The notes beneath the pieces were generated by a model. It was not told where the DNA came from, searched no databases, and was given only the letters and a program-made list of their open reading frames with translations. Shown here piece after piece: positions 1,062 through 16,074 of a stretch of DNA of 23,399 nt. Source of the stretch: a virus; the IMG/VR virus record IMGVR_UViG_3300025727_000054, positions 1-23,399 of that record; one strand, written 5' to 3'. The translations under genes and the position numbers were made by a program. Every line of letters starts with the position of its first letter. Positions within the stretch are counted from its first letter, which is position 1.

Positions 1062-2159
1062 TTAAACCTGTGAACCTACTGGACTAGGAAACCATCTTAC
1101 TCCACCTGCTAAATCTCCAACATCAGTCGCATCTGAATCTGTAGTCACACTATATTTTTCTATTATATTTATAGCACCCCCTCCTCCTGCATTATAACCA
1201 GCTGCACTATAACCAAAAGTTTCTGATGAACATCCTGTATGTCCATGACGATCTGCTGTTAAATTTGCAGTATTAGTCGAATCTCCATCAGTTGCAAAAG
1301 AATATTTACGAATGCTACCACCATTTTGATTAAAAACACCGCCCGCTATATATCCATGTGTTAAAGATGATGTACCGGAATGACTTTCAGCAGCCTCACC
1401 AACATCACCCACATCAGTAGCATTATTATCTGAAGCCAATGTAAACTTATCTATTGTATTAAGCCATGGAGCTCCAGCTTCTCCACCAGCAGAATAACCA
1501 TGTGTTGAAGATGTTGCTCCTGATGTTACAGACCTTGTTACTGTTAAGTCTGCAACATCTGTTGCATTATTTGTACTACCAGTAGATGCAAATGGAAACT
1601 TTTGTATACTATTAATATATGTATGGCTCCCACCTTGTGGGCCATTATTACCCCCAACATGATAACCATGAGTTTCAGATGAATGGCTAGTACCTTGTCC
1701 TGACGCAATTGCTAAGTCACCATGATCTACAGCATTTCCTTCTGTTGCAAAACTCCATCTATCAATTGTATTATTAATTGGTTGTGCAATATGTCCACTA
1801 CCAGAAATATATCCATGTGTACTTGATGATTGACCGGATTGATGTGATCTACCAACTATTACATCTCCAACATTAGTAGAATTTGCATCTGTTGTAAAAC
1901 TCCATCTATCAATCGCCGTAATATTAGTTCCACCAGCTGGAGCAGTATTACCAGCAGCACAATATCCTTTGACTGTTCCCGGGAATGTCCAAAGTGGTTG
2001 ACCCCATTCAGGTGCAGTAACAGATTCATTCATAGTAAGAACTTCTCCAGGTTCTCCTTTTGCAAGTCGCACCCAATCAGTTCCATCAAAGTATGCAACA
2101 TCACCTGATGCTTGACTAGTCAACTCTATTGTGACACCTGATATTTTTTGTATAGCCAT
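1062..2159 (-). CDS. Six-repeat propeller-like tail protein, paralogue 3 (365 aa)
   Basis: Third paralogue. The N-terminal module is MAIQKISGVTIEL, DVAYFDGTDWVRLAKGEPGE and NESVTAPEWG. Six repeats begin near residues 65, 116, 165, 221, 269 and 316, with AIDRWSFTTDANSTNVGDV, TIDRWSFATEGNAVDHGDL, SIQKFPFASTGSTNNATDV, TIDKFTLASDNNATDVGDV, SIRKYSFATDGDSTNTANL and IIEKYSVTTDSDATDVGDL. The last repeat ends in WFPSPVGSQV instead of the SSxTHGY linker, as expected if the ring closes there. It has no clear ribosome binding site of its own and starts on the stop codon of paralogue 2, so it depends on coupling. Its N-terminal DNA shares an exact 33-bp block with paralogue 1. Confidence 0.85.
   Translation of the reverse strand: MAIQKISGVTIELTSQASGDVAYFDGTDWVRLAKGEPGEVLTMNESVTAPEWGQPLWTFPGTVKGYCAAGNTAPAGGTNITAIDRWSFTTDANSTNVGDVIVGRSHQSGQSSSTHGYISGSGHIAQPINNTIDRWSFATEGNAVDHGDLAIASGQGTSHSSETHGYHVGGNNGPQGGSHTYINSIQKFPFASTGSTNNATDVADLTVTRSVTSGATSSTHGYSAGGEAGAPWLNTIDKFTLASDNNATDVGDVGEAAESHSGTSSLTHGYIAGGVFNQNGGSIRKYSFATDGDSTNTANLTADRHGHTGCSSETFGYSAAGYNAGGGGAINIIEKYSVTTDSDATDVGDLAGGVRWFPSPVGSQV
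2052..2084 (-). repeat. 33-bp exact direct repeat, copy in propeller paralogue 3
   Basis: Matches 4223-4255 exactly. The corresponding part of paralogue 2 encodes AAWQRLPIGE and does not match. Recombination between the copies would delete or exchange one to two propeller genes while keeping the reading frame. Confidence 0.85.
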
Positions 2160-3250
2160 TATATTTGTGTTCCCGTTCCAGAAAAATGACTTCTTGCTAC
2201 TGTTAAATCTGCTACATCAACTTCATTTCCATCTGACACATGACTATTCTTTGATATTCTAGTTACTTTTGCTGGAGCTGTATCAATCCCTCCTGCTGAA
2301 TATCCATGTGTAGTTGATGATGTACCAGATGAAAGTCCTCGTTGAAATGAAATATCACCTACATCAACAGAATTTGTTTGAGATGCATATGGAAATTTTT
2401 GAATATCAGCAACATACGGCCCACTCGCACCACGATATCCAAACGCTGCATATGCATGGGTTAATCCTGATTGACCATTCATGTCACGCATCGGAAATGT
2501 TAAGTCTGCATGGTCTGAGGCATTACCATCTGAAGCAAATAAAAATTTATCTATTACATTTGTATTTGGATCGCCAGGTCCACCTTGAAAACCACCAAAA
2601 ACAAATCCACCATAATCCCAAGATGAACATCCTGCATGACCAGCACCATGAGCCGCTACTGTAAGATTACCTACATCTGTAGTGGTTGATTCGTTTGCAA
2701 ATAAGAACTTTGAAATTGCGTTACCATCACCATACAAATCATAAGCACCCGCACCATAACCATGTGTTTCTGATGCGTGACCACTTGGGCCATCCCAATG
2801 GTTATTAGGTAAAGTTCCAACATTAGCTGCATTTCCATCTGAACTAAAACTCCACTTCTCAACAAAAGTGCTTGTTCCACGAGGAGGTCCCACATTATTA
2901 CGCATACAATAACCATTAGTATTTGAACCACAACATCCAGCTTGCATTCCCGGAGCGGTTAAATCTCCGACATCAGTAGCATTTACGCTACTCGTATAAC
3001 TAAACTTATCTATTATATTAACGGGAGTTGTTCCTGATGTTTCTCCACCTACACAATATCCAGAAATTCTTCCTTGAAATATTGGAGTATCATCCCATGT
3101 AGGTAATGTTCCACCTTCATTCATAGTCAATCGTTGGCCAGCTTCACCTATTGGTAATCGTTGCCAAGCAGCACCATCAAAGTATGCAATATCACCAGCG
3201 GCATCATTTCCTAACTTAATTGCTCTTCCCGGTATTTTTTGTGTAGCCAT
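2159..3250 (-). CDS. Six-repeat propeller-like tail protein, paralogue 2 (363 aa)
   Basis: Same architecture as its neighbours. The N-terminal module is MATQKIPGRAIKL, DIAYFDGAAWQRLPIGEAGQ and NEGGTLPTW (to about residue 52). Six repeats follow from about residue 64, with IIDKFSYTSSVNATDVGDL, FVEKWSFSSDGNAANVGTL, AISKFLFANESTTTDVGNL, VIDKFLFASDGNASDHADL, DIQKFPYASQTNSVDVGDI and a last repeat RISKNSHVSDGNEVDVADL. The second repeat has lost the usual GG (GYCMRNNVG) and carries a longer loop. Several cysteines occur in repeats 1-3. The gene's TAA shares one base with the ATG of paralogue 3 (TAATG), so their translation is probably coupled. A tail-fibre tip or decoration role is inferred from the cassette. 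Confidence 0.85.
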   Translation of the reverse strand: MATQKIPGRAIKLGNDAAGDIAYFDGAAWQRLPIGEAGQRLTMNEGGTLPTWDDTPIFQGRISGYCVGGETSGTTPVNIIDKFSYTSSVNATDVGDLTAPGMQAGCCGSNTNGYCMRNNVGPPRGTSTFVEKWSFSSDGNAANVGTLPNNHWDGPSGHASETHGYGAGAYDLYGDGNAISKFLFANESTTTDVGNLTVAAHGAGHAGCSSWDYGGFVFGGFQGGPGDPNTNVIDKFLFASDGNASDHADLTFPMRDMNGQSGLTHAYAAFGYRGASGPYVADIQKFPYASQTNSVDVGDISFQRGLSSGTSSTTHGYSAGGIDTAPAKVTRISKNSHVSDGNEVDVADLTVARSHFSGTGTQI

Positions 3251-3256
3251 TATCTA

Positions 3257-3261
3257 TCCTT
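3257..3261 (-). promoter_or_regulatory. Ribosome binding site of the second propeller-like gene
   Basis: AAGGA on the minus strand at the same 6-nt spacing as before the first propeller-like gene, in a leader AAGGATAGATAATG that differs from that gene's by one base. It is the only clear signal in the 18-nt gap. Confidence 0.75.
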
Positions 3262-3268
3262 ATACTGT

Positions 3269-4330
3269 TTAAAAATGTGATGATCCATGATGACTTCTAT
3301 TAGTCGTTTGTCCTGTTCCTAAATCTCCTACATCATTCCATGTTGTTTCATTAGCAAAAGAAAATTTATCTATTTGTGTAAAATGAACTTCACCCCCTAC
3401 TAAATATCCATGTGTCTGAGATGATATTCCATTTCCTCTAGCGGTTCCATTAGAACTAAGTGTGGCAACCTGTGTTGCATTACCAGATGATGCAAATGCA
3501 TATCTTTGTACTCTTGATGGATTACCAGGTCCTATAAAATAACCATGTGTTTCTGATGAACAACCAGAAGCTTGACCTGATGTAAGTACTAAATCTCCAA
3601 CATCATCAGTTGTTGTTTCATTTACAAAAGAAAATCTATCAATTACATTTGTATTTGGAAACCCTCCTGCTGCATAACCATAATCATTAGTTGAATCAGT
3701 TGCTCCACCACCATGTGTTCCAGTATGACTGTTTGATAAATTACCAACCAAAGTTGCGTTTGCTGTATTAGCAAATGCAAATTTTTCTATATTAGCACCG
3801 GCACCACTCACACCATAACCATGTGTTAAACTTGAAACTGGAGTTATACGAGGGTGATTAGTTGTCAAATCAGCAAGGTCAGTTGCGTTACCACCAGGAT
3901 TTGTATTTTGAAAACTTTGAATCACATTCTGTGATTGAGCCCCACCAGCTACAAACGAATGTGTTTCACTTGAAAAACCAGAACATCCATGATTCGCTGC
4001 AACCAAATCACCAGTTGTATCAACTGCATTTCCATCTGTAGCAAATTCATGTGAATATATATCTGAGAAATAATACCAGACACCTGTTCCACCACCACCA
4101 GGCTGGTCATGGTGATTAGCACCACCTATAGAAAATCCTCTAGTACTACCACGATAAACCCAATCGGATGTACCCCATTGTGGAAATGTTCCAGCATCAT
4201 TAACAACTAATACTTGTCCTGCTTCTCCTTTTGCAAGTCGCACCCAATCAGTTCCGTTATGATACATAATATCAGAACTTACTTGTGAATCTAATTGTAT
4301 TGCTCTACCTGGGACTTTTTGTAATGCCAT
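3269..4330 (-). CDS. Six-repeat propeller-like tail protein, paralogue 1 (353 aa)
   Basis: First of three tandem paralogues. Residues 1-52 form a shared N-terminal module (MALQKVPGRAIQL, DIMYHNGTDWVRLAKGEAGQ, VNDAGTFPQW), probably an attachment domain. From about residue 65 there are six repeats of about 45-55 residues. The repeat pattern is GYxxGG...N.IDKFSFA, then ..GNATDVGDL, then GCSSETH; examples are VIDRFSFVNETTTDDVGDL and QIDKFSFANETTWNDVGDL. The pattern resembles kelch/galactose-oxidase-type blades, and six of them could close as a beta-propeller, but the fold is inferred. The first repeat is longest (a PGGGGTG insert) and the third is degenerate. Surface loops vary more than the framework, consistent with ligand binding. 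A sugar or receptor ligand is a guess. Confidence 0.85.
   Translation of the reverse strand: MALQKVPGRAIQLDSQVSSDIMYHNGTDWVRLAKGEAGQVLVVNDAGTFPQWGTSDWVYRGSTRGFSIGGANHHDQPGGGGTGVWYYFSDIYSHEFATDGNAVDTTGDLVAANHGCSGFSSETHSFVAGGAQSQNVIQSFQNTNPGGNATDLADLTTNHPRITPVSSLTHGYGVSGAGANIEKFAFANTANATLVGNLSNSHTGTHGGGATDSTNDYGYAAGGFPNTNVIDRFSFVNETTTDDVGDLVLTSGQASGCSSETHGYFIGPGNPSRVQRYAFASSGNATQVATLSSNGTARGNGISSQTHGYLVGGEVHFTQIDKFSFANETTWNDVGDLGTGQTTNRSHHGSSHF
4223..4255 (-). repeat. 33-bp exact direct repeat, copy in propeller paralogue 1
   Basis: Identical base for base to 2052-2084 and encodes the same TDWVRLAKGE segment of the N-terminal module. Flanking sequence diverges, including at synonymous positions, so this block stands out from the surrounding homology. 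Confidence 0.85.
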
Positions 4331-4336
4331 TATTTA

Positions 4337-4341
4337 TCCTT
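4337..4341 (-). promoter_or_regulatory. Ribosome binding site of the first propeller-like gene
   Basis: AAGGA on the minus strand, 6 nt before the ATG at 4330, overlapping the TAA stop of the 837-aa fibre gene (TAAGGATAAATAATG). The leader nearly matches TATCCTTATC's counterpart before the second propeller-like gene, which fits duplication of gene plus leader. The GATAAATA here is one base off a late promoter but is too close to the ATG to act as one. Confidence 0.75.
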
Positions 4342-6853
4342 ATCTATATTCTCTAATATATATTCCACCAGCACCACCAGCACTACCCCAACCATTAGCT
4401 GTTGTCCCAGCACCACCATCTCCTTTACCTGAAATGCCTGAGTTTACAAAGCCGTGTGCAGATTTCATTCCAAAGCCTGAACCAGCGGCACCAGCACTTC
4501 CATGTGTTGTTGCTTGTGGAATAGATACATCACCACCACCTTCAGTTCCGATACCACCTCTAGTTCCACCAATACCATAATAGGCACTTACTTGCCCTTG
4601 TATATATCCACTACCACCATTCGTAACTGTTATACCTGTAACTGCACCACCTGAAATAGTTGCAGTAGCTGTTGCACCTGTACCACCAGCACCTGTTGCT
4701 GAACTCCAATTTGGTTCTATAGTAATAATTGGAGCTATAGTTAATCCACTACCAGCATCACCAGTTATTGCTGTAATAGCACCATTCGTAACTGTTACAG
4801 TCAAAGCAGTAAATTGAAGTGTTCCATTTTGGCCAAAACATGATCCTGCAGCATTATTCGCAGAAGTTCCACCTCTACCAACTTGATAATTTATTGAAGA
4901 AATATTTTTAACATCAAATATTCTCCTACTAAATCCACCAGAACCACCATTACCACCTGAACCTGATCCTTCTGCACCAGAACCACCTCTACCTGCTCCT
5001 CCACCACCAGTAAGAAAAACTTCAATTTGTTTAACACCTGAAGGTTTTGTCCAAGTACCATTAAGAGTTGTTGTCTGATCTGATGAAACAATAATATCTT
5101 CCGTTACAGTACCAAAAAGACCCCCTACTACTGAAGGATCTGAGTATTCTTCAATAAAAATACAACCACCAGTATTCCCGACCATAGCATCGCCAGTTGC
5201 AATACCTCGTGCTCCTCTACCATATGCTGCAATATATGAAAGACCACCAGGACCACCAGCACCAACACCGGCTGAATCACTTCCTAAACCACCATCTTCT
5301 CCCGGAAAAATTATATCAGCACCAGTTGCAAGACCACCAAGACCACCCGGACCGTTATCCTGGTTATTGCTTGTTACATTTGCGGGACCTCCACCAAGAC
5401 CTACTATTGGAGTTGCTAAACTAAAAGTTGTAGGATTAGCTGTAGTCGCTATTGTATATGCAACTGTAGTCAGACCAGTAACATCAACTACTGATATACC
5501 AGTACCTCCTCCACCTCCACCTCCAGTACTACAGCCGCTATGACCATTGAAAGCATGACCACCACCACCAACAACAAAAACTCTAATTTTTGTAACGCCA
5601 GCAGGCTTTGTCCAAGTACCAGCACCAGCAGTTGTAAATAATTGATGTGATACTAATTTCTCTCCAACTAGGGAGGCACTTACATCTGAGTATTCTTTGA
5701 TAAGACAATATCCATTAGAGCCAGTCCTACTGTTTCCAGCACTTACAGCCTCAGCCCCTCGCCCATAATTACCACCAAAAGGTCCGGCAGCACGACCACC
5801 ATCTCCTTCAGCTCCACCACCGGATCCGGAGCTGTCGCCTGCACTACCAGAAAGATTAAATGAACCACCAGTTGCTGTACCGCCTGCTCCACCAGTAGGA
5901 AGGTTCTGAACCACTGCACCAGAATTAGCAGTCAAAGTAGTAATACCACTTCCAACAAATGTACTCGCCGTGGAGGGAAAGTTTGGTATAATCCAAGCAG
6001 TCCCTATTGTAACTGTTGCAGAAGCAAGATCAGTAACATCATAAATACCTAAACAATAACCACCTCCACCTGCTCCACCCGTGGCAGCGGGACTCGAACC
6101 CGCAACAGCTTCAGTACTTCCACCAGGCCCAATTAAATGAACTTCAATTCTTTTCACACCAGAAGGTCTTGTCCAAGTTCCGCTAGCAGAAAAACTTTGA
6201 GTTGATACCAACTCACCACCAACTCCACCGAGAGGAGTTTCGCTTGCCCAATTCGTTCCATCAGATGTTAATACATTTCCGTCTGCACCGACAGCTGGTA
6301 AAGCAGCTGTAGCTGCATTAACCCAATTAGGTGCATTAGCAGCAGAATTAGTCGCGAGAACTTGTAACGCTGTTCCAATACCTAATTTCTGATAATCTGT
6401 TCCATTATAATAAAGAATATCACCAGCCACATCACCACCCATAGATAGTTTAGCACCCGTAATACTATTATCTGCAACAGAACTTGCAATACCTAAATGT
6501 ACTACTCTTATAGCTGCACCATTGCCAGGTGCGGGACTAAATGTAATTGATGTTGTTGATGGTAAAGTAAATGATGTGGTTGGTTGAGCAACACCATCAA
6601 TAAAAGTTAATATTGATTCTTCATAAGGCGCACCAGTACTTAATGTAAACGTAGTTGTAGTACCATCACCTGTAAAAAGATTTTCTATATATGTGGAAGA
6701 ACCTACAGCACCACCTGCACCAACTGTTGCAAAAGTCATTGTACCAGATCCGTCTGTAACTATTGCCTGGCCTGAAGTTCCGTCAGTTACAGCCAATTGT
6801 GGAATACCAACTGTGTTGTCGGTAACCATTCTACCATGTGTTTTAATAGTCAT
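4340..6853 (-). CDS. Tail fibre/adhesin with three glycine-rich domains (837 aa)
   Basis: Modular. Residues 15-42 hold a [12 protein letters not shown] / TDGSGTMTF module shared with the 464-aa fibre. About 57-124 hold the [15 protein letters not shown] beta domain. 143-177 hold the [14 protein letters not shown] docking-like module shared with the propeller proteins. Three glycine-rich domains follow, each opening with GTW(T)(R/K)PxGVxxIxV: near 225 ([14 protein letters not shown]), 412 ([14 protein letters not shown]) and 599 ([14 protein letters not shown]). Each ends in a short strand ([25 protein letters not shown]). The third is longer because a GxGY-type block (about 680-757) interrupts it. 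The function is probably receptor binding at the fibre tip, by analogy with polyglycine-sandwich adhesins. A tRNA T-arm-like GC-rich patch encodes about residues 250-257. Its TAA overlaps the next gene's ribosome binding site. Confidence 0.87.
6080..6103 (-). other. tRNA T-arm-like sequence embedded in the fibre coding region
   Basis: On the minus strand, 6103-6087 reads GCGGGTTCGAGTCCCGC: a perfect 5-bp stem around the seven-base loop TTCGAGT, which fits the universal T-loop pattern (TTCRANY). The next seven bases (TGCCACG) occupy the place of an acceptor-strand 3' half, but no CCA follows. The 50-60 bases upstream give no D-arm or anticodon arm, so this is not a complete tRNA gene. The codons here (GCG, TCG, CCC, GCC, ACG) are unusually GC-rich for the window. 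It may be a captured tRNA fragment or a coincidence. Confidence 0.45.
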
Positions 6854-7227: not shown

Positions 7228-7836
7228 CTATACCTTACTATAAAAATGTGTCATACAATATCTACCCAATCCTTGATCTCTGTATTTATTTTCTATTTTT
7301 ACTTTATCTACTTCATGTAAATAATAGCTTGGAAACATTATCATTCTATTATGTATACACTCAACTGTTTCATTTGATTCTGGAAATCTTAAATTTCCAT
7401 CTTCAAATCTTTTTGGTTCTTTATAAAACCATATCAAAACTGTATGCATAAACGAATCAAAATGTTCTCCATAACTATTTGAATCTTCATAATAATTAAC
7501 TATCGAACAATCATAGTTAGTATTTTCAAATTGTCTTGCAGCTGGTGTCGTCTGTCTATAATTTTCTAAAACTTCTTGTGATAATATTTTTTTATATACT
7601 GTTAATATATTTGAATCTTCTCTATTGTCTGGATATATTCCTTCCAGATAAATTCTATTTAAATTGGCTACTGGACTAACACCATAACTACCTGGGAACT
7701 TTCCATCTGTATAAAGATTGTCTTGTCTATACCATTCAAGTTCTTCCCAAATTAAATCTTGTTCTTCGGTTGAATAAAAATCATCAACAATCATATATGG
7801 AAAAGCTTTATCATCTGTACATAATGTAAAATTCAT
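7228..7836 (-). CDS. 2-oxoglutarate/Fe(II)-dependent oxygenase (prolyl hydroxylase-like)
   Basis: 202 residues with the iron-binding facial triad in place: HFD gives H125 and D127, and the distal histidine is H174 in SYYLHEV. R192 in GLGRYCMTHFY is the likely 2-oxoglutarate carboxylate ligand. The gap H174-R192 is wider than usual, with a charged loop between. The C-terminal strand order (NYYEDSNSYGEHFDSF, then GNLRFPESNETVECIHN, MIMFPS) fits the double-stranded beta-helix of the P4H/PKHD group. Such enzymes hydroxylate protein side chains, nucleic acids or small molecules, and the substrate here is unknown. The gene lies between adhesin and fibre genes, and 2OG oxygenases are frequent accessory genes in marine T4-like phages. 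No good ribosome binding site precedes the ATG. The DNA looks AT-richer than its neighbours. Confidence 0.88.
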   Translation of the reverse strand: MNFTLCTDDKAFPYMIVDDFYSTEEQDLIWEELEWYRQDNLYTDGKFPGSYGVSPVANLNRIYLEGIYPDNREDSNILTVYKKILSQEVLENYRQTTPAARQFENTNYDCSIVNYYEDSNSYGEHFDSFMHTVLIWFYKEPKRFEDGNLRFPESNETVECIHNRMIMFPSYYLHEVDKVKIENKYRDQGLGRYCMTHFYSKV

Positions 7837-7848
7837 AATACTTATAAT

Positions 7849-9060
7849 TTAAGGGGTGTATATAATAACATCTCCTGTTGCACCAGAGGTTCCACCAGTA
7901 AGTGTTTCACCAGTAACAAAAGCTCCTGTTGGTTCTGATAGACTTATTGTTCGCCGAGGTGTAATCCAACTTAAATTTCCTGTTCTTGCATCATTAGTAC
8001 TTGAACCAATACCACCAGCACCTACTGCAATTGCATAAGTCCCAGATACAATCTGTGTACCAGTAGCAACGTGCATACCACCAGCACCTCCACCACCTCT
8101 AAACCATCCACCTTCACTATTACTATTACCATGACCACCAGAACCTCCACCACCAGATATAATCATAGTATCAATATTACCAGTTCCAGTTACAACAATT
8201 GCACCGGAAGATAAAAAAGTATGTGATTTATAATTTACCGAACTAACTGTATAAGTATTTGTAGTACCACCTGCAATACTAAATCCTGATTGACTTGTAT
8301 CATATCTCACAACTACAATACCAGAACCTCCATTACCCGGTACGGATCCAGCTGCGCCACCTCCACTTCCAGTATTTACAGCACCAACAGCAGTAGTTCC
8401 ACTACCACCTCCACCTGATCCACCTGCAGCATAACTTGGAGTTACATTACCTCCTGCACTTCCACCACCGCCTGCAAATATATGCATCCCTACAGTAGTT
8501 CCAGCAGTATTTCCATCTCTATAAAAATTAGCTAAACCAGCACCGCCTGCTCCACCAGTAGTACCACCTCCACCGCCACCGGCAGCACCTGCTCCTCCAC
8601 CGCCACCGCCTGCACCTGAATGAGCATTTCTATCTCCACCATTACCACCATTATTTCCTTGGCCTGTAGTTGATCCACCTCCACCAGAAGGACCCCAATT
8701 GTTTGAAGCTCCTCCTCCACCTGAACCACCACCATAACCAGCTTCTTCACCCGGACCTCCTGCACCTCCACCTACACAAGTTGCTAACTCTGTTGTTCCT
8801 ATTAAAGTAACACCTTCGTAAACTGCTGTATATCCATTTACACTTCCTGTAACTGTTTCACCTAATTGAAAATCTGGTAAAGCAGTAAGAGTTCTTTCTA
8901 TCACTTGTGATGTCCCAGGAGTTCCATGATAAGGAATCTGTTCTGGATTTGTTCCACCCGGACCGGGAATATTACCTTGAATTTTAATCTGTAAATCCAT
9001 TAATGCAGCTGCAGTTAAACCGACTACACTAAGATGTCTGCCCTGATTAATAAATGCCAT
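7849..9060 (-). CDS. Glycine-rich tail adhesin (403 aa) with apparently permuted halves
   Basis: About the first 60 residues look like an attachment segment. An FQLGETVTG module (64-72) follows, then a very glycine-rich block (97-248, runs such as GAGGGGGGAGAAGGGGGG) closing with GGSGIVVVRY (244-253). Residues 279-352 (SHTFLSSGAIVV, IDTMIISGGGGSGG, YAIAVGAGG) are the kind of sequence that normally opens a glycine-rich tail domain rather than follows it. The protein ends with a second module, FVTGETLTGGTSGATG (381-396). Such domains occur in phage tail tips and T-even-type gp38 adhesins, where polyglycine helices pack as a sandwich and surface loops bind receptors. The ribosome binding site is weak (TAAGG). 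Its stop lies 12 nt before the oxygenase ATG. Receptor binding is inferred. Confidence 0.85.
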   Translation of the reverse strand: MAFINQGRHLSVVGLTAAALMDLQIKIQGNIPGPGGTNPEQIPYHGTPGTSQVIERTLTALPDFQLGETVTGSVNGYTAVYEGVTLIGTTELATCVGGGAGGPGEEAGYGGGSGGGGASNNWGPSGGGGSTTGQGNNGGNGGDRNAHSGAGGGGGGAGAAGGGGGGTTGGAGGAGLANFYRDGNTAGTTVGMHIFAGGGGSAGGNVTPSYAAGGSGGGGSGTTAVGAVNTGSGGGAAGSVPGNGGSGIVVVRYDTSQSGFSIAGGTTNTYTVSSVNYKSHTFLSSGAIVVTGTGNIDTMIISGGGGSGGHGNSNSEGGWFRGGGGAGGMHVATGTQIVSGTYAIAVGAGGIGSSTNDARTGNLSWITPRRTISLSEPTGAFVTGETLTGGTSGATGDVIIYTP

Positions 9061-9063
9061 ATT

Positions 9064-10458
9064 TTATGCCTTACATTTTAACATAAATCTTACACCTGAT
9101 CCAGCAACTCCAGAACCAATTTGTGTAACTTTAAAAGTTATCCTATCACCAGAAACAAAAGCAGTTGTTGATAATACACCAGCAGTCATCGCATTAGTAC
9201 TAATTGCAAATTGTGGTTTAGTAGAATAAATTGATGTTCCATTTTTTAAAACATCACATATAAGAGCTTGACCAGTACATACAGTATCAAGATATCCAAC
9301 TTCACCTTCAAATATTCCAGTTCGTGCCATAACCATTTCACCATATGTTTGAACTACCACTGCTTGTGCAACAGTAGCAGAAGAATAACCAGCAATAAAA
9401 GATATATCATAATTCCATCCAAAAGCAGCACCAAACGAAGTTGGATTTCCAGCAATCTTAGTTCCATCAATAGAATCATCTGCTATATCAGTTCCAACGA
9501 TTGAACCATTTGCAATTTCTTGTGAACGAATAGTTCCCGGAGAAATTGATGCATTTGTAATTGTTTGTGCAAATATCTTGGCTTCTGTTACAGCATCATC
9601 AGCTAACTTAACTGTTGTAATTACACCATCTAAAATTTTTGCTGAAGTAACTGCGTTCGCTGCTATTTTCGCAGTCGTAACTGTTCCATCTGAAGGTACA
9701 CCAACCGTAGATTGAAAACCAAGATGTAAACAACGGATAATTGAACTTAGAGGAGGTGCTGTAATAAACTGAATAGATGTTGCTGTCGGTAATGCGTATG
9801 CAGTTGTTGGTTGAACAATACCATCAATATAAACTAGTAATGCGTTAGTAGAACCAACAGAAGCAGAAAGAGTAAATGTGGTTTGTGCAGATACACCTGT
9901 AAATTCATCTATTGTAAAATTCTTTAATGCTGTTGTCAGCATTCCAGATGTTATCGTATCCTGATTAATTACAGCTGCAGATGTTGTACCAGAAAGATGT
10001 CCACCTAAAGCAGGGTCTGTAAGAACATCACCAAACGAAAGAGTACCAGAACCATCAGTAATAAGTGCCTGACCAACAGTACCATCTGAAACATTCAATT
10101 CAGTAATTCCAACTTTATTATCTTTAATAAGAGCATTTGCAACAGTACCTTCAATGTCACCACCAAGAGCTCCCATCGTGGCACCAGCTACATCAATCGT
10201 ACCAAAACTAATTGTACCAGAACCATCAGTTTTTATTACCTGTTCTGCTGTACCATCTACAAGATTTAATTGAGTAACACCAACTTGATTTATGACATTA
10301 CTCATATCCTCTCTTGCTAATGGATATCCACCTGCAACTGATCCATCATGAACTACTACTGTATCTTTACTAGTATCAACAGTTGTTTCACCATCATACC
10401 CTGTAAAGGTAGCATGCTCTGATGTTGTACCTCTTCTTCTTTGGACTCTCTTTGCCAT
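9064..10458 (-). CDS. Tail fibre protein with Mtd-like N-terminus and decapeptide-repeat stalk
   Basis: 464 residues in clear modules. Residues 1-50 (VQRRRGTTSEHATFTG, VVVHDGSVAGGYPLAR) resemble the N-terminal domain of phage major tropism determinants, an anchoring domain seen in many fibres. Two copies of a VxxLNVxDGT..TDGSGTxSF module lie at 59-86 and 116-142. A beta domain with YIDGIVQPTTAYALP (210-224) follows. Residues 257-336 are eight consecutive decapeptides of the form DGTVTTAKIA / NGSIVGTDIA, probably a trimeric stalk or beta-helix. The C-terminal head (345-464) contains VLKNGTSIYSTKPQFAI and GDRITFKVTQIG and is probably a beta-sandwich that could bind a receptor. No reverse transcriptase or template repeat for diversity generation is in view despite the Mtd-like domain. 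Confidence 0.88.
   Translation of the reverse strand: MAKRVQRRRGTTSEHATFTGYDGETTVDTSKDTVVVHDGSVAGGYPLAREDMSNVINQVGVTQLNLVDGTAEQVIKTDGSGTISFGTIDVAGATMGALGGDIEGTVANALIKDNKVGITELNVSDGTVGQALITDGSGTLSFGDVLTDPALGGHLSGTTSAAVINQDTITSGMLTTALKNFTIDEFTGVSAQTTFTLSASVGSTNALLVYIDGIVQPTTAYALPTATSIQFITAPPLSSIIRCLHLGFQSTVGVPSDGTVTTAKIAANAVTSAKILDGVITTVKLADDAVTEAKIFAQTITNASISPGTIRSQEIANGSIVGTDIADDSIDGTKIAGNPTSFGAAFGWNYDISFIAGYSSATVAQAVVVQTYGEMVMARTGIFEGEVGYLDTVCTGQALICDVLKNGTSIYSTKPQFAISTNAMTAGVLSTTAFVSGDRITFKVTQIGSGVAGSGVRFMLKCKA
9451..9690 (-). repeat. Eight 30-bp coding units encoding decapeptide repeats
   Basis: Residues 257-336 of the 464-aa fibre split exactly into eight ten-residue units: DGTVTTAKIA, ANAVTSAKIL, DGVITTVKLA, DDAVTEAKIF, AQTITNASIS, PGTIRSQEIA, NGSIVGTDIA, DDSIDGTKIA. 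Hydrophobic residues fall at positions 4 and 9 of each unit. The DNA units have diverged, so selection for the protein pattern rather than recent expansion maintains it. A similar pattern (DGTVANVDIA) is in the partial fibre gene at the low-coordinate end of the window. Confidence 0.85.
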
Positions 10459-10459
10459 A

Positions 10460-10663
10460 TTATTTCTCGCTCATCTTTAGTAAAAGATTTTTTATTTCTT
10501 GTATATCATCTTTCAAAGTATTTATATCAGTTACACAATTTTGTAAAGTGTTTTGTTCTTGTACTCGTTTATCTCTTGCCATCTTATATTGTTCTAAAGA
10601 ATTAATATCAGTATTTAAAACAGCTTTAGATAAAGTATCTCTAACAAATTTATGTTCATTCAT
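10460..10663 (-). CDS. Small coiled-coil phage protein (67 aa)
   Basis: A 67-codon gene whose ATG overlaps the TGA of the giant structural gene (ATGA), which implies translational coupling. The N-terminal half contains LSKAVLNTDINSLEQYKMAR, a pattern (NTD...L..YK..R) I recall from small proteins in other phage structural clusters. The C-terminal half (DINTLKDDIQEIKNLLLKMS) has hydrophobic residues in heptad spacing and probably forms a coiled coil. No cysteines, membrane segment or enzyme motif is visible. It may be a small virion component or a chaperone for the neighbouring giant protein or fibre, but this rests only on position and predicted helix. One base separates its stop from the next ATG. 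Confidence 0.8.
   Translation of the reverse strand: MNEHKFVRDTLSKAVLNTDINSLEQYKMARDKRVQEQNTLQNCVTDINTLKDDIQEIKNLLLKMSEK
10519..10526 (-). promoter_or_regulatory. Possible late promoter inside the 67-aa gene
   Basis: An exact TATAAATA on the minus strand within the coding sequence of the coiled-coil protein (reading GAT ATA AAT ACT), 60 nt before the ATG of the Mtd-like fibre gene. The distance is suitable for starting the fibre cassette separately from the giant structural gene. Because it is intragenic in AT-rich DNA it may be fortuitous. Confidence 0.4.
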
Positions 10664-13600
10664 GCCATCGCGATTGCTCGGTAATCTTGTATTCTCGGAA
10701 CCTTAGTTGTATTTGTACTTGTCATTACAATCTTAATTGCAAAAGTTTTAAATGTTGTATATGTTGCACCCGAAGCAGTATAGTTAACATTACCACCTGC
10801 TGGGTCAAATTGAAACTCAGTAAATTCATTATCTGTCAATGCAACATTATTTACATTAGTTGTCTGTGACATTACTTCCCATGGTCTATCATCAAATAAT
10901 TCTGGATCAAACTGTGATAATACTTTGTAATAAACATAAACATTTGTTCCAGCTGGTTTATTCATTGTTAAGAATATTGATAAATCAGATGCGTCAAAAC
11001 CATCTGTCAAACTTACTCGTCTTGAAATATATTTTGCTGTTGCGTTTCCACCAGACGGTTGTTCGGTTTCATTTGTTATATCATTATTAACTATATTTTC
11101 AATTGCAATCGCACCCATTCGACCCGTATCAATAATAGGACTGATTTGGTCATTCGTGGATGATAGAGTAGCCTTAGCAACAAAACTTCCTGCTGTTGTA
11201 GTAATTACTTGTTGATTAACAAACTCATGGTTTTTATTTGGAATTGTATTTACAAAAGAAGAACCTAAAATACCAGTAGATTTGGGAGATGTCTTGACTG
11301 CCCAAGTCACTGCTGTATTATCAATTTTCAATTCTTGTGGTGTCATTTGCATAACATCCATATTCATATTTACTGAATTTGAATTATTAAATACAGCTTC
11401 ATGTGTTCCTGCTATTGTATATGAACAACGATTTAAAACAAAAGTCAAATCTTGATTTTGATTCTGTTGCCATGTACTTGCATTCTGTGATTTAAACAAT
11501 ACACCAGTTGCGGGTTGTTTAGAAACTTTTCGTGTAGAACCAATTACGTTCTGTCCTAATTCTGCCATGTAAGATTCCCACTTACTACTATTAGACATTA
11601 TAACAACTGCATATTCTCCCGGTGCTAAGAAAACAGGAGAAGGGAATGTAAACTTAGTTGCTACTGAACCATCTTCACTTGTCGTAACTTCAGATGGCAA
11701 TTTACTTACATCAGAAAATGGTGCTACCATTAATGTTGGAAAGCCTGCTTCAGTCGCACGAATAGAAACATTAACTGGAACACCACCATCATCTTTAGAT
11801 TTAAAATATAAATCTAAGTCAGAACAATATACACCATTTGGATATAAACTAGGATCAACAAAGAATGTTTGTGCAAGAGGATCACCACCACCCGGAGGTG
11901 CGGCCCATCCAATAACAACATTTCTATCAAACCTTCTTGTTGTTACTATTGCCTCATCAGCACTTCCCATTTGTCCTACATGAAGTCTTGGGATTCTTGA
12001 TGAAAGAATTAATTCTTCATTTGTTGCTAACAATCCCTGTGCATGAAAAGCTCTTTCAGCAAATGTACTAGCCGTTGTTAATGAACCATTAGAATCATCT
12101 GTTAAAAGAAATTGTCGTTCACCAGTTCTGAATATTAATAAAGGAGGTTCTTGTTCTTGTGCTAAATCTGGACAAGGTAAATTAAATACCAATCCACTAA
12201 CTGAACCATTATCATCACTATAGATTGCATCACCAGCACTTCCACCACTAGGAGTACAATATGAAGCTATTGATGTTTTATCAAAGAAAGGATAAACTCT
12301 TGTGTTTGGTTTTAATCCTGTTGCTGTAACAGTAATCGTTTGTTCTCTTATGTATGGTAATACAGAAAGATCAACCACTCGTTCTCCGAGAGTTTGATTA
12401 ACTGTATCAGAACCAACAATCTCTGTTCGTATACCTGTTCGTGATTGAAGTTGATCTACAGCAAATGTTTGTCGTTGTACTAATGCTCGACCCTGCCATC
12501 CTGCCTCACCTCTATCAACTACTCTTTCATTTCTTCCAGTACCAATGTCTTGCCAATCATTCCATTGACTTCCCCATCCAAGTCCAGCCAACATTTCCCA
12601 TGCATCATTTTCACCAGTTGCATTAACAATAACATCTGGTCTATTATTTTTTGATACCCACATATCACTATCTGGACTGAGTGAAAGTACACCCATCCAA
12701 TGTTGTACATCAAATGGATTAACACTTGTAAATGATGTTGCTTGTGTTTGACTAACAAGAGATGTCGTTGTATATGGTAATGTAATTAAGTCACCAGTTT
12801 TCTGAACACCCGTAGATGAACCAGATATATATGTGAGGTCTGCCATGTTAGAAAGAAACGAAGGTCTTAATTCACGGCTTTGATAATCAATAGCACACTT
12901 ATAATCTGCACTACGAACATCGCCTATACTATGTCCGGCAAAGTCATCAACTAATATCCCATTCTTGAATCTGTCTAATCCAGATGCATCTTTAATAACC
13001 AATGCCTCTGCATCTTTTTCAAGTAATGTAAGAGCCGTATAATATTCTACATGATTAAGTCGTTTTTCTAACTTACCAATGTCTTTCATTGTATATCGTT
13101 TATTCTCAATATACTTTGCAATAACATCGGCTGGTTTAAATGTGTATGCAGGAATTCTAAGTTCCCACAAACTCATTGTGTTATCTAATTTATATGGAGG
13201 TACTGGATTATCAGATGATACACCTTTGTGTACACCAAACTGTTTATCTTTACTTAGATAAACCATATCTATTCTTGGTTGGTAATAACTATAATCTGCC
13301 TGCCAATTAAGATTTGGATATGGATGTTCTGCACCTGTTAATGTCGTGGCTCCATCTGCTCGCCGTGGTCTAAAGTCAATACAATCTCTAAGTTCAACTA
13401 TATTACCAGTTGTCGGACTTGTAAATGTTGGAATATCATCATAACCAGTTGCTGCTGTATATGAATCAGCAGAAAGATAACCAGAACCACTATGTGTAAA
13501 ATAATCAAAAATTACTAAAATTCTACCAGTAGGTGCAGTTCCTGTTAATTGGATTCTACCATGATCGTAAAAATTATCTCGTTGTCCAGTATCCAAAGTG

Positions 13601-16074
13601 TAACTAGATTTAATATCTGTATCACCAGTTGCAAGACTAGCCATGGTTGCAGTATATGAGTTAGCACTTCCAGTAATAGTTTCTGTTCCTGCAAATGTTC
13701 CTGAAGTAACAACAAACGTAATTGTTGTTAATGGATTATGTGCAATAACAGTTCCTATTGCACCAGATGTTCCACCCGTAATTGTTTCACCAGCAATAAA
13801 AGTTCCAGTTGCACCTGATACTGTTAGTGTCGGTGCTACTGCATCTGTACCAGCATTGCCAGAATCATAAACAGATTTAATTAAACTTGCGTCAGCCAAG
13901 TTAAGAGAAGTGTATCCTAATGCTGTATTGTTTGGTGATGTAACTGGTAATGTTTTATTCAAAACAAGTGTCTTAATTCTTTCTTGTTTCGTATCAACAT
14001 TCATAGTTACCCAAAAATTAAATGTCGTATTTAATGATACGTCACCAGTAAATATAGTTACTGACTGTCCATTAGCAGCTACTGTAACAGTTGCAGCTGC
14101 AGGAGTTGTTGCACTAAGATTTACATTCACACCACCCGAATCCTGTGCATGATAATAAGTATCTTTTACCGTTGAACTAAGTACACCAGTTCCATAGAAT
14201 GTTTCATTAGCACCACTTGATGTTAATGTACAAGTACCAGCACTAATAGTAACAGTACCATAATGTTTTTGTTTAGTATAACTTGTATCAATGTTACCCG
14301 AATCATCACGAATTGTTTTAATCGTATTCTGTGGTAATTTAAATACCATTGAATTGAAATCTGTTTCAAATAATTTTGCATCACCATTCACAACACCACC
14401 AATTTTACCTATATCAGCTACTCTGGATTCTGTGGTTACAACTACTGGAGTTGTATTTGCATCAACAGGGATAGTAAATCTTTCTGCATCAACAAATGCA
14501 TTACCAGCTGTCATCTGAATATCATATAAAAATATTTGATATCTCCAAGTAGATGGTGTGCCTAACGTAGGTCTATCAATTGGTGTTATAGTACGAACTC
14601 TTGCTGTACCAATTTTAGTATTTGCGTATGTAACTGGAGTTGTTAAAACAGGAGCTGCATTATGAATATCAACTGCCGTGCCTGTAGTAAAATCATACAT
14701 TCCTGACAAGTTATCAATTTTAGTATAATTGCCATATTGTAGTAAACGATCAAAGTTATTTACACTAACATAATCTCTTGCACGATCTACTGCAACATCA
14801 CTTGAAATTAAAGTTCTAAATTCATGGCCATGAACATATGCTTTACCTGGGTCTAATCGTGCAGTAAATTTTGTTGCATCAACTGGATTACCTGTATGTG
14901 GTTTTAATTGTAATGGAAAATGTCTTACAGTATAATCACCTGACTCATCATATGTTCTTCGAGCAAATGTTTCTTCCAATACAGAGTAGATTGGATATTC
15001 AACATCAACATGTCGAACACCATTTACCAAACGAATCATCTCTATAAAATCTATATCATCTGTAGACGTTGTAGTTTTCTTAATAAGAGTAAGAGTATAT
15101 TTTAATCTGTCAGCACCTGGAGCTGCATAGTTGTATGCTCCCTGTGCATTATCTAAAAGTGTAGTATCATCCCCAGAAGCAACTGTAACTGCTTCGACTT
15201 GAAAACCAATTTTATATGTTGGTGTATTTGTATAGTTATCTAAAATAACTGTTGAGGCACCTGCTCGTATAAAGTTACCATTAAAATAATAGTAACCTGC
15301 ATCATTAGAAACTGCTGAACCCTTACCTGTTGCAGAAGAAGATGCAGCTAGACAAGCAACTGCTTGATCTGTTGATACTAATCTTTCACCAGAATTAAAT
15401 ACTGCTGAAGTATTAAGAGTAGCTGTTGCAGTTGCAGAAGAACCTCCACCACCCGTAATTGAAATACTTGGTGTAGATGTATATCCAGATCCTTTATTTG
15501 TTACATTAATACCGATAATTGTTTGCGCACCAGAAGTTCCATTATTACCAACTACAGCAACAGCTGTTGCATCAACACCACCACCACCTGTAAGAGTAAC
15601 TGTCGGTGTAGTAGTATATCCTGTTCCTGCATTAGTTACAGTAATACCTTGAACATTTTGTGTGAGTCCACCACCCGTAAGATACTTAACCCATATAGTA
15701 TCTGGATTACCAGTTGTTGCATCAACAGCAGAAGTATTAACAACTCTTGCTATCGTTCCAGATTGACTACCAATAATTGTTTTACCATTAAAGTCAGCAA
15801 CAGTAATTGCAACACCATTATAATTAGCTTGCAACTTTACATAATTATAATCTGTATCAACGTGCAATTCACCACCAGATACTCGACTACCATTTGCAAA
15901 TATATGATCGCCAAATCGTTTGAGTTGATTTCTTATTATTGTTTGTTCTTGGGTAAGTTCTCTTGCCTGAACAGCTACAGCAGGTTTATAGAGGACTTGA
16001 TGAAAATCTTTAGTTTCATCATAATCATCAAAGTAAGGACTCTGATTAAGATTTAAATTTATATTGGTCGTCAT
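10660..16074 (-). CDS. Giant virion structural protein (1804 aa), baseplate periphery or fibre anchor
   Basis: The largest gene, directly after gp8 where T4 has gp9-gp12. The N-terminus has SPYFDDYDETKDFHQVLYKP and VAVQARELTQEQTIIRNQLK followed by FGDHIFANGS (residues 12-63). This pattern is found in large structural proteins of marine myophages and recalls DUF4815-type proteins (from memory). Two GxGY/GGGG repeats lie at 143-218 and two FxxGExxTG modules at about 757-812. A conserved-looking core follows: GNIVELRDCIDFRPRR (890-905), YYQPRIDMVYLSKDKQ (930-945), VQHWMGVLSLSPDSDMW (1123-1139) and LKPNTRVYPFFD (1254-1265). The C-terminal part is beta-rich (DPLAQTFFVDPSLYPNG). No catalytic motif is visible. 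It probably links the wedge rim to fibres, perhaps replacing gp10 functionally. Its TGA overlaps the next ATG (ATGA). Confidence 0.88.
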   Translation of the reverse strand: MTTNINLNLNQSPYFDDYDETKDFHQVLYKPAVAVQARELTQEQTIIRNQLKRFGDHIFANGSRVSGGELHVDTDYNYVKLQANYNGVAITVADFNGKTIIGSQSGTIARVVNTSAVDATTGNPDTIWVKYLTGGGLTQNVQGITVTNAGTGYTTTPTVTLTGGGGVDATAVAVVGNNGTSGAQTIIGINVTNKGSGYTSTPSISITGGGGSSATATATLNTSAVFNSGERLVSTDQAVACLAASSSATGKGSAVSNDAGYYYFNGNFIRAGASTVILDNYTNTPTYKIGFQVEAVTVASGDDTTLLDNAQGAYNYAAPGADRLKYTLTLIKKTTTSTDDIDFIEMIRLVNGVRHVDVEYPIYSVLEETFARRTYDESGDYTVRHFPLQLKPHTGNPVDATKFTARLDPGKAYVHGHEFRTLISSDVAVDRARDYVSVNNFDRLLQYGNYTKIDNLSGMYDFTTGTAVDIHNAAPVLTTPVTYANTKIGTARVRTITPIDRPTLGTPSTWRYQIFLYDIQMTAGNAFVDAERFTIPVDANTTPVVVTTESRVADIGKIGGVVNGDAKLFETDFNSMVFKLPQNTIKTIRDDSGNIDTSYTKQKHYGTVTISAGTCTLTSSGANETFYGTGVLSSTVKDTYYHAQDSGGVNVNLSATTPAAATVTVAANGQSVTIFTGDVSLNTTFNFWVTMNVDTKQERIKTLVLNKTLPVTSPNNTALGYTSLNLADASLIKSVYDSGNAGTDAVAPTLTVSGATGTFIAGETITGGTSGAIGTVIAHNPLTTITFVVTSGTFAGTETITGSANSYTATMASLATGDTDIKSSYTLDTGQRDNFYDHGRIQLTGTAPTGRILVIFDYFTHSGSGYLSADSYTAATGYDDIPTFTSPTTGNIVELRDCIDFRPRRADGATTLTGAEHPYPNLNWQADYSYYQPRIDMVYLSKDKQFGVHKGVSSDNPVPPYKLDNTMSLWELRIPAYTFKPADVIAKYIENKRYTMKDIGKLEKRLNHVEYYTALTLLEKDAEALVIKDASGLDRFKNGILVDDFAGHSIGDVRSADYKCAIDYQSRELRPSFLSNMADLTYISGSSTGVQKTGDLITLPYTTTSLVSQTQATSFTSVNPFDVQHWMGVLSLSPDSDMWVSKNNRPDVIVNATGENDAWEMLAGLGWGSQWNDWQDIGTGRNERVVDRGEAGWQGRALVQRQTFAVDQLQSRTGIRTEIVGSDTVNQTLGERVVDLSVLPYIREQTITVTATGLKPNTRVYPFFDKTSIASYCTPSGGSAGDAIYSDDNGSVSGLVFNLPCPDLAQEQEPPLLIFRTGERQFLLTDDSNGSLTTASTFAERAFHAQGLLATNEELILSSRIPRLHVGQMGSADEAIVTTRRFDRNVVIGWAAPPGGGDPLAQTFFVDPSLYPNGVYCSDLDLYFKSKDDGGVPVNVSIRATEAGFPTLMVAPFSDVSKLPSEVTTSEDGSVATKFTFPSPVFLAPGEYAVVIMSNSSKWESYMAELGQNVIGSTRKVSKQPATGVLFKSQNASTWQQNQNQDLTFVLNRCSYTIAGTHEAVFNNSNSVNMNMDVMQMTPQELKIDNTAVTWAVKTSPKSTGILGSSFVNTIPNKNHEFVNQQVITTTAGSFVAKATLSSTNDQISPIIDTGRMGAIAIENIVNNDITNETEQPSGGNATAKYISRRVSLTDGFDASDLSIFLTMNKPAGTNVYVYYKVLSQFDPELFDDRPWEVMSQTTNVNNVALTDNEFTEFQFDPAGGNVNYTASGATYTTFKTFAIKIVMTSTNTTKVPRIQDYRAIAMA

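Follow-up and report, generated by a model that had tools for sequence, protein, structure and literature searches.

Tandem six-bladed Kelch propeller proteins as putative exchangeable receptor-binding tips of a T4-like marine phage

Three adjacent genes for six-repeat Kelch proteins

The stretch of DNA analysed here is virus record IMGVR_UViG_3300025727_000054, which is 23,399 bases long and is referred to as the window. Its minus strand carries three adjacent genes, A, B and C, each encoding a short N-terminal module followed by a C-terminal head made up of repeats (Table 1). A first-pass annotation had described three neighbouring genes with an N-terminal module and six repeats each. This was confirmed, as the open reading frames (ORFs) are in place and the repeat profile counts six in each of them. 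In each test two of the proteins supplied the profile, which was then applied to the remaining one from residue 61, and exactly six repeats were found every time. The held-out scores are 141.5, 206.0 and 218.0 bits for A, B and C, compared with best scores of 5.3, 6.8 and 5.9 bits in 200 shuffled versions of each protein; A has the weakest repeats of the three. The repeats occupy the proteins from about residue 63 to the C-terminal end. According to the profile, the sixth repeat ends at residue 350 of 353 in A, 362 of 363 in B and 364 of 365 in C, and in our segmentation it reaches the last residue in all three. Among the paralogues of the window, modules are 54–58% identical to each other and heads 37–39%. 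Between positions 1000 and 4400, tandem arrays at the DNA level are represented by a single row with a 15-base unit. This near-absence of tandem repetition indicates that the protein repeats are old at the DNA level.

Structure models were made with AlphaFold2 (AF2) for C, using 33 sequences, and for A. The C model has a mean predicted local distance difference test (pLDDT) score of 83.6 and shows strands b, c, d and a in the repeats; when the part from residue 61 onward is divided into 31 blocks of ten residues, 22 of them are at 90 or above. Its structural alignment to the designed Kelch protein 7onc gives a Z-score of 40.1 and a root mean square deviation (rmsd) of 1.8 over 280 residues, that to Keap1 (1x2j) a Z-score of 39.0; the top E-value in Foldseek is 1.8e-19. 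The A model (mean pLDDT 74.8) aligns to the designed Kelch protein 7ona with a Z-score of 34.0 and an rmsd of 1.9 over 264 residues, and to Keap1 1x2j with a Z-score of 33.1. With a profile to which they contributed, the repeats of B reach scores similar to those of C. A PDB sequence search with a profile of 33 family proteins returned 20 distinct sequences at E ≤ 1, all of them Kelch proteins (best 1.8e-5). Strand B typically ends in a glycine pair: among 1038 repeats of the family, G occupies profile state 6 in 93% and state 7 in 97%. Within A, B and C, several repeats deviate from this pair. Models and profiles together make a Kelch fold near certain. The propellers suggested by the first-pass annotation were borne out by structure prediction for C and A, both models being six-bladed and specifically of the Kelch type.

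Strands of the C model include residues 64–71, 79–87 and 95–99 and a final strand at residues 361–364. The resulting order, b-c-d-a in each repeat plus a terminal strand, is the one described for Keap1, in which the final bA strand completes blade I (PMC4668279). The strand at residues 361–364 is presumed to close blade 1 of C, and its pairing we infer. Closure had been proposed from the last repeat; the placement of the terminal strand agrees with this, and the absence of the SSxTHGY linker from that repeat would be explained if the repeat finishes with the strand that closes blade 1.

BTB-Kelch proteins (Keap1, KLHL12, KLHL20) and the designed SAKe6 likewise have six four-stranded blades with GG ending strand B, a terminal A strand placed for blade I, and variable BC and DA loops on one face. 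Identity to them is 14–23% in the structural alignments listed. Unlike BTB-Kelch proteins, A, B and C have no BTB domain detectable by Pfam; they carry a short module that is shared with tail-fibre-like proteins, and are encoded in tandem phage arrays. Three other families matched some of 33 relatives, namely THDPS_M (13 of 33, best 5.3e-5), DUF4907 (eight, best 4.3e-8) and the NucA/NucB nuclease (eight, best 1.7e-4). They were set aside as repeat-driven, because none matches A, B or C and because structures and profile indicate Kelch.

Scans of viral contigs with C and one relative, together with a scan of genome contigs, yielded 86 loci. In 83 of these, one gene or more has at least three repeats. 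There are up to ten repeat genes per locus. Three loci come from genome contigs, in two metagenome-assembled genomes. Most loci are the best 80 of 211 tblastn-confirmed stretches obtained with a six-repeat query, which favours full-length matches; the array neighbours of these stretches were not selected by that query. The 307 repeat ORFs contain 214 distinct repeat regions, 193 of which are clear of the ends of the fetched DNA; regions were made distinct by exact identity only, and some loci are almost identical to each other or overlap within a single contig. Six repeats were counted in 183 of the 193 complete regions (five in four, four in four, seven in one, two in one), and several of the exceptions contain unmatched stretches in which a repeat was possibly missed.

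Among 50,697 phage records, a typical member used as query matched only Synechococcus phage S-SKS1 at E ≤ 0.001 (two accessions, 15 places each). The best place has 33% identity with 88% of the query covered (tblastn). C also matched S-SKS1, and two more records weakly (E 0.07–0.1), and B matched no phage record at 1e-5 and none of the viral contigs. By tblastn, the S-SKS1 proteins belong to the same repeat family, and one of them, M4QT40, is a structural neighbour. S-SKS1 is a cyanophage.

Variable loops and exchange of heads between slots

The first-pass annotation had also proposed a conserved framework with differing loops. Per-site entropy, computed for 1038 repeats from 173 non-redundant relatives with class borders drawn from the C model, upholds this view. 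The BC and DA loops have mean entropies of 2.60 and 2.55 bits, as compared with 1.01, 1.01, 0.83 and 1.02 bits in strands b, c, d and a and with 1.13 and 0.85 bits in the CD and AB turns. Insertions were found in the BC loop of 251 repeats, in the DA loop of 76 and elsewhere in 24. At loop states 8–15 and 37–42 the most frequent residue does not exceed 73% (R at state 39). In Keap1 the binding face is made up of the DA and BC loops (PMC4668279), and KLHL20 likewise binds through its BC and DA loops (PMC6720452).

Four pairs of related heads were compared for amino acid differences in the BC and DA loops versus the AB and CD turns. These amount to 50/116 versus 14/62, 43/100 versus 9/60, 35/104 versus 13/60 and 25/124 versus 5/56, and the excess on the loop face was matched in 8, 0, 236 and 55 of 5000 permutations, respectively. 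The ratio of non-synonymous to synonymous substitution rates (dN/dS) was determined for five non-independent pairs. Pooled values are 0.82 for the DA loop, 0.46 for the BC loop and 0.34–0.59 for the rest of the named regions of the head; the 98 codons without state assignment have a value of 0.86 and the N-terminal module one of 0.36. In single pairs, values above 1 occur in strand c (1.07), strand a (1.15) and the DA loop (1.12 and 4.23, the latter resting on very few synonymous changes). In the family, blades at the same position are no more alike than blades at different positions (0.566 versus 0.562; 0.598 within one protein), so that blade-by-blade orthology cannot be used. A diversity-generating retroelement was considered and rejected: head substitutions are of all six types, with no adenine-specific pattern. 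No reverse transcriptase is present among the 17 window proteins scanned; the template repeat was not searched for, and the window is a fragment.

The same operon was found in two further contigs (L008/L028 and L009/L027). Across the three operons the modules follow the slot, with identities of 90–100% for A, 87–96% for C and 73–85% for B; the B module of the window is 85% identical to that of L009 and 73% to that of L008. Heads follow the slot for A (62–74%) and, between the window and L008, for C (71%). Slot C of L009 has a module that is 96% identical to the C module of the window and 87% to that of L008. Its head is 88% identical to the B head of L008, and 41% to the C head of the window (41–43% across the C heads of the window and L008). 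A single crossover between codon columns 46 and 47 fits 299 of 317 informative sites, with 38 of 38 C-like on the left side and 261 of 279 B-like on the right side, which was reached in 0 of 2000 permutations. The crossover is located inside the module, beside ACTATGAATGA, which the six B and C modules have in common and the A modules lack. Of ACTATGAATGAA in the C module of the window, the first 11 bases recur in all six B and C modules compared and not in those of A. Downstream of the slot-C stop codon of L009/L027 the DNA returns to the C type, with GGTTCACAGGTATAATGTATAAATACTAG compared with GGTTCACAGGTTTAATGTATAAATACTAG at the end of C in the window, and the genes downstream of slot C align at 84.7%.

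To judge from these alignments, the sequence after the slot-C stop codon in L009/L027 is a leftover of the old C ending, and the slot-C head is replaced as a unit. This is one clear case with a scar. As the donor head is identical to no head found here, the case does not amount to mere confusion with L008. A misassembly involving an unseen relative is possible, but it would have to leave such a scar. The head of B in the window is 34–40% identical to each of the eight other operon heads compared; so divergent a head on a module that is close to its L009 counterpart suggests a further replacement. Further operon scans returned the same two contigs only, other loci there having more distant modules. 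The earlier description of A, B and C as duplicated binding proteins that diversify was correct as to point divergence and incomplete in that a whole head can also be replaced on a conserved module.

In the wider family, pairs were examined among the 179 proteins whose N-terminal part spans 25 residues or more. Eighteen pairs combine N-terminal identity of at least 80% with head identity below 60%, and two pairs combine head identity of at least 80% with N-terminal identity below 50%. Another 25 pairs have N-terminal identity of at least 80% and head identity of at least 60%, so that head and N-terminal part often travel together. Compared with the L009 case these pairs are weaker evidence, as the N-terminal parts are mostly short.

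Two tandem paralogues of another locus (L064:2027–3007 and 9445–10416) have 82% identity over 362 aligned bases with a shift of about one blade (bases 485–840 of one gene versus 608–966 of the other). Blade 5 of one is identical to blade 6 of the other wherever the two align, and this includes the loops. By sequence, blades seem to move between positions at a constant count of six. More speculatively, marine T4-like phages might possess an antibody-like repertoire, with fixed slots each taking any of a large pool of Kelch heads. Cassettes would move between slots and phages by module homology and blades between heads, giving combinatorial receptor specificity on one propeller scaffold. We put this forward tentatively, as an idea that may well prove too far-reaching.

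Putative receptor-binding tips and rival explanations

In pelagimyophages, the region from VrlC to gp14 is described as hypervariable and as the host recognition cluster, and it contains tail fibres (PMC7029224). A, B and C are located downstream of gp25, gp6, gp8 and VrlC homologues, in a window that does not reach the gp14 side of this region. The position directly downstream of VrlC and the company of tail fibres are those of the pelagimyophage and cyanomyophage host recognition cluster (PMC7029224). The words kelch, propeller and paralog are absent from the main text of that paper. Neck or sheath-stabiliser genes were found in 35 of 68 related loci, always on the strand of the array, and in 18 of the 31 loci of at least 15 kb. 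Ten chosen array-adjacent proteins all have PHROG matches: seven to connector, sheath or sheath-stabiliser families (one of them a sheath protein), two to tail-fibre families and one to a family named oxygenase/ferrochelatase. The module type also occurs in other proteins of other contigs, and five of the nine scanned match tail, tail-fibre or tail-spike families. The glycine-rich neighbour of A matches a tail-fibre-assembly family.

Location, shared module, head exchange and one-sided variability make it likely that A, B and C are exchangeable tail-borne receptor-binding tips of a T4-like marine phage, and we regard this putative role as probable. They would be accessory tips of tail fibres or baseplate fibres, each attached to the tail by its N-terminal module of about 53 residues, a kind of module that also occurs inside large tail-fibre proteins. 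The C-terminal 300 residues or so would form a Kelch propeller of six blades that its own final strand closes, with the variable face of BC and DA loops gripping a ligand on the host surface. Several heads may be displayed together on one phage, presumably as part of the virion. The repertoire would shift by point and length changes in the loops and also by exchange of whole heads on the conserved module, through recombination in the module and at a second junction just past the stop codon.

Several results weigh against this interpretation. Pooled dN/dS is below 1 in every region, so that positive selection is unsupported in the five pairs, and the BC loop shows increased synonymous change as well; some of the loop divergence is therefore attributed to recombination or relaxed constraint. 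The loop-face excess is weak for the W_A/L009_A pair. Neck or sheath-stabiliser genes are absent from 33 of the 68 related loci, and four of the nine module-bearing proteins scanned elsewhere match no tail family. The N-terminal module is modelled at low confidence (block means 35–74 in the C and A models). Three orthologous operons were found, with a clear swap in one. The best-matching place in S-SKS1 is annotated as ‘hypothetical protein’. Finally, Pfam Kelch models match neither A, B or C at 0.1 nor any of 33 aligned family proteins at E ≤ 1. This missing match is a matter of lower detectability and not of a weaker fold assignment.

Kelch propellers have likewise been described in other tailed phages, namely for jumbo phages (CBB_550, CBB_552 and CBB_554; BcepSaruman; PhiPA3), and such proteins are among the structural neighbours found here. 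The Kelch protein CBB_552 is present in the mature virion of jumbo phage CBB, with no phage binding function assigned in the accessible part of the source (PMC5259590). This case, and the up to ten repeat genes per locus, which could mean bulk display, would be compatible with propellers that decorate the tail, whiskers or capsid. Such propellers would have weak affinity for phage proteins or general surface glycans and would not determine host specificity. We consider such decoration unlikely. Modules of A and C are 87–100% identical across the three operons, whereas their heads are 62–74% identical or replaced (slot C of L009), and the genes lie within the tail-fibre cluster. Conserved modules, divergent or replaced heads and this location fit specific recognition better than generic display.

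Poxvirus BTB-Kelch proteins act by binding proteins inside the cell during infection; poxvirus Kelch proteins are among the structural neighbours found here, and protein binding is common for Kelch domains. That A, B and C are intracellular proteins which bind host or phage proteins during infection is nevertheless very improbable, given the position of the genes in the structural region, the sharing of their N-terminal module with tail-fibre-like proteins and the lack of any Pfam domain beside the repeats. An enzyme of the galactose-oxidase or lyase type acting on host polysaccharide is brought to mind by one structurally similar phage protein named galactose oxidase and by the 2OG-Fe(II) oxygenase gene in the cluster. 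Galactose oxidase, however, has seven blades, compared with six here, and the positions of the loop face are the most variable ones, with no residue above 73% at states 8–15 and 37–42, so that we would hardly expect catalysis at all.

Phage Kelch proteins and modular receptor-binding proteins as such are already known (PMC5259590, PMC10684548). In the latter, the N-terminal part is conserved and the C-terminal receptor part exchanged (PMC10684548), and the proteins of the window likewise combine a constant N-terminal part with a swapped C-terminal part. As a difference, the swap here is between tandem slots of one operon type, one head taking the place of another of the same fold, with a relic of the old ending. 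The words kelch and propeller are absent from the main text of that paper, which deals with domain shuffling. Jumbo phages are a different phage group, and no tandem arrangement of heads on modules with head exchange is described in the accessible part of PMC5259590. One Kelch-repeat protein is listed as unique to cyanophage P-HM2 (PMC3037559). The text of PMC9004378 contains neither kelch nor propeller, and that of PMC4981710 no kelch; in PMC12494034 and PMC13033339 the word is the name of an author. In the open-licence literature searched, mostly by listing, no description of tandem head-on-module Kelch arrays with a traceable swap was found.

Since Kelch is a well-understood protein-binding scaffold, the sequence of a head is enough to read its variable face. 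If A, B and C and their relatives are indeed receptor-binding tips, they represent a large readable collection of host-recognition surfaces in uncultured phages. Through the scar, head exchange in host recognition clusters can be traced directly.

Neighbouring genes and other features of the window

The gene order on the minus strand is gp25, gp6, structural protein, gp8 and VrlC homologues, followed by a small protein and fibre-like genes. Pelagibacter phages HTVC008M and Mosig have the same relative order, Mosig with additional genes between structural protein and gp8. The gp6 homologue is about 39% identical to gp6 of HTVC008M and Mosig, which are at the top of the matches listed. Identity of the VrlC homologue is 40% over residues 789–1552 to the HTVC008M protein and 41% over residues 816–1553 to the Mosig protein. 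Features are listed in Table 1.

Table 1. Features of the A, B and C genes and their surroundings in the window.
Feature	Position	Strand	Basis or remark
Gene A, 353 residues: N-terminal module and six-repeat Kelch head	3269–4330	minus	AF2 and repeat profile
A N-terminal (docking-like) module, residues 1–55	4166–4330	minus	module profile, independent E-value 1.1e-37 (profile includes A's own sequence)
A Kelch head, residues 64–353, six repeats	3272–4141	minus	repeat profile and AF2
Gene B, 363 residues: N-terminal module and six-repeat head	2159–3250	minus	repeat profile
B N-terminal module, residues 1–53	3092–3250	minus	module profile
B head, residues 63–363, six repeats	2162–3064	minus	repeat profile only
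Gene C, 365 residues: N-terminal module and six-repeat Kelch head	1062–2159	minus	AF2 and repeat profile
C N-terminal module, residues 1–55	1995–2159	minus	module profile
ACTATGAATGAA within C module	2025–2036	minus	beside crossover site of L009 orthologue
C Kelch head, residues 64–365, six repeats	1065–1970	minus	repeat profile and AF2
C final codons GGT TCA CAG GTT TAA	1062–1076	minus	relic of same ending in L027 (11350–11364)
Glycine-rich protein with divergent internal module copy (residues 130–178)	4340–6853	minus	module profile
VrlC homologue, start of host recognition cluster	10660–16074	minus	identity to HTVC008M and Mosig proteins

The motif TATAAATA, which we take to be the T4 late-promoter core, is present seven times in the window, all on the minus (coding) strand, with 3.2 expected; 7 of 100 shuffles reach seven. 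One site (1052–1059) is just downstream of C. Between positions 1 and 7500 there are 26 promoter-like sites compared with 25.4 in shuffles, which is no excess, and 10 terminator-like sites compared with 3.4. RNA elements were not detected at the gathering threshold.

The N-terminal part of the glycine-rich protein is conserved (81% in L027, and part of a 91.9% block in L028). The remainder aligns as short pieces in L028 and hardly at all in L027. The 2OG-Fe(II) oxygenase gene (7228–7836) is located within the fibre cluster and is found in L028; in the syntenic stretch of L027 it is not among the ORFs listed. One array-adjacent gene of another locus also has a 2OG-Fe(II) oxygenase family match (L049:10912–12168). 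In the arrays of four T4-like contigs (L049, L053, L061, L064), non-structural genes follow or interrupt the array, before the neck genes where these are present. The gene at 7849–9060, likewise glycine-rich and variable between operons, encodes 403 residues; its counterpart in L027 is 284 residues long and has a similar start and a single short aligned piece. The fibre protein encoded at 9064–10458 contains the Mtd N-terminal domain (PF18454, E 2.5e-10), and a stretch of HTVC008M matches the 47 N-terminal residues of this protein at 55%.

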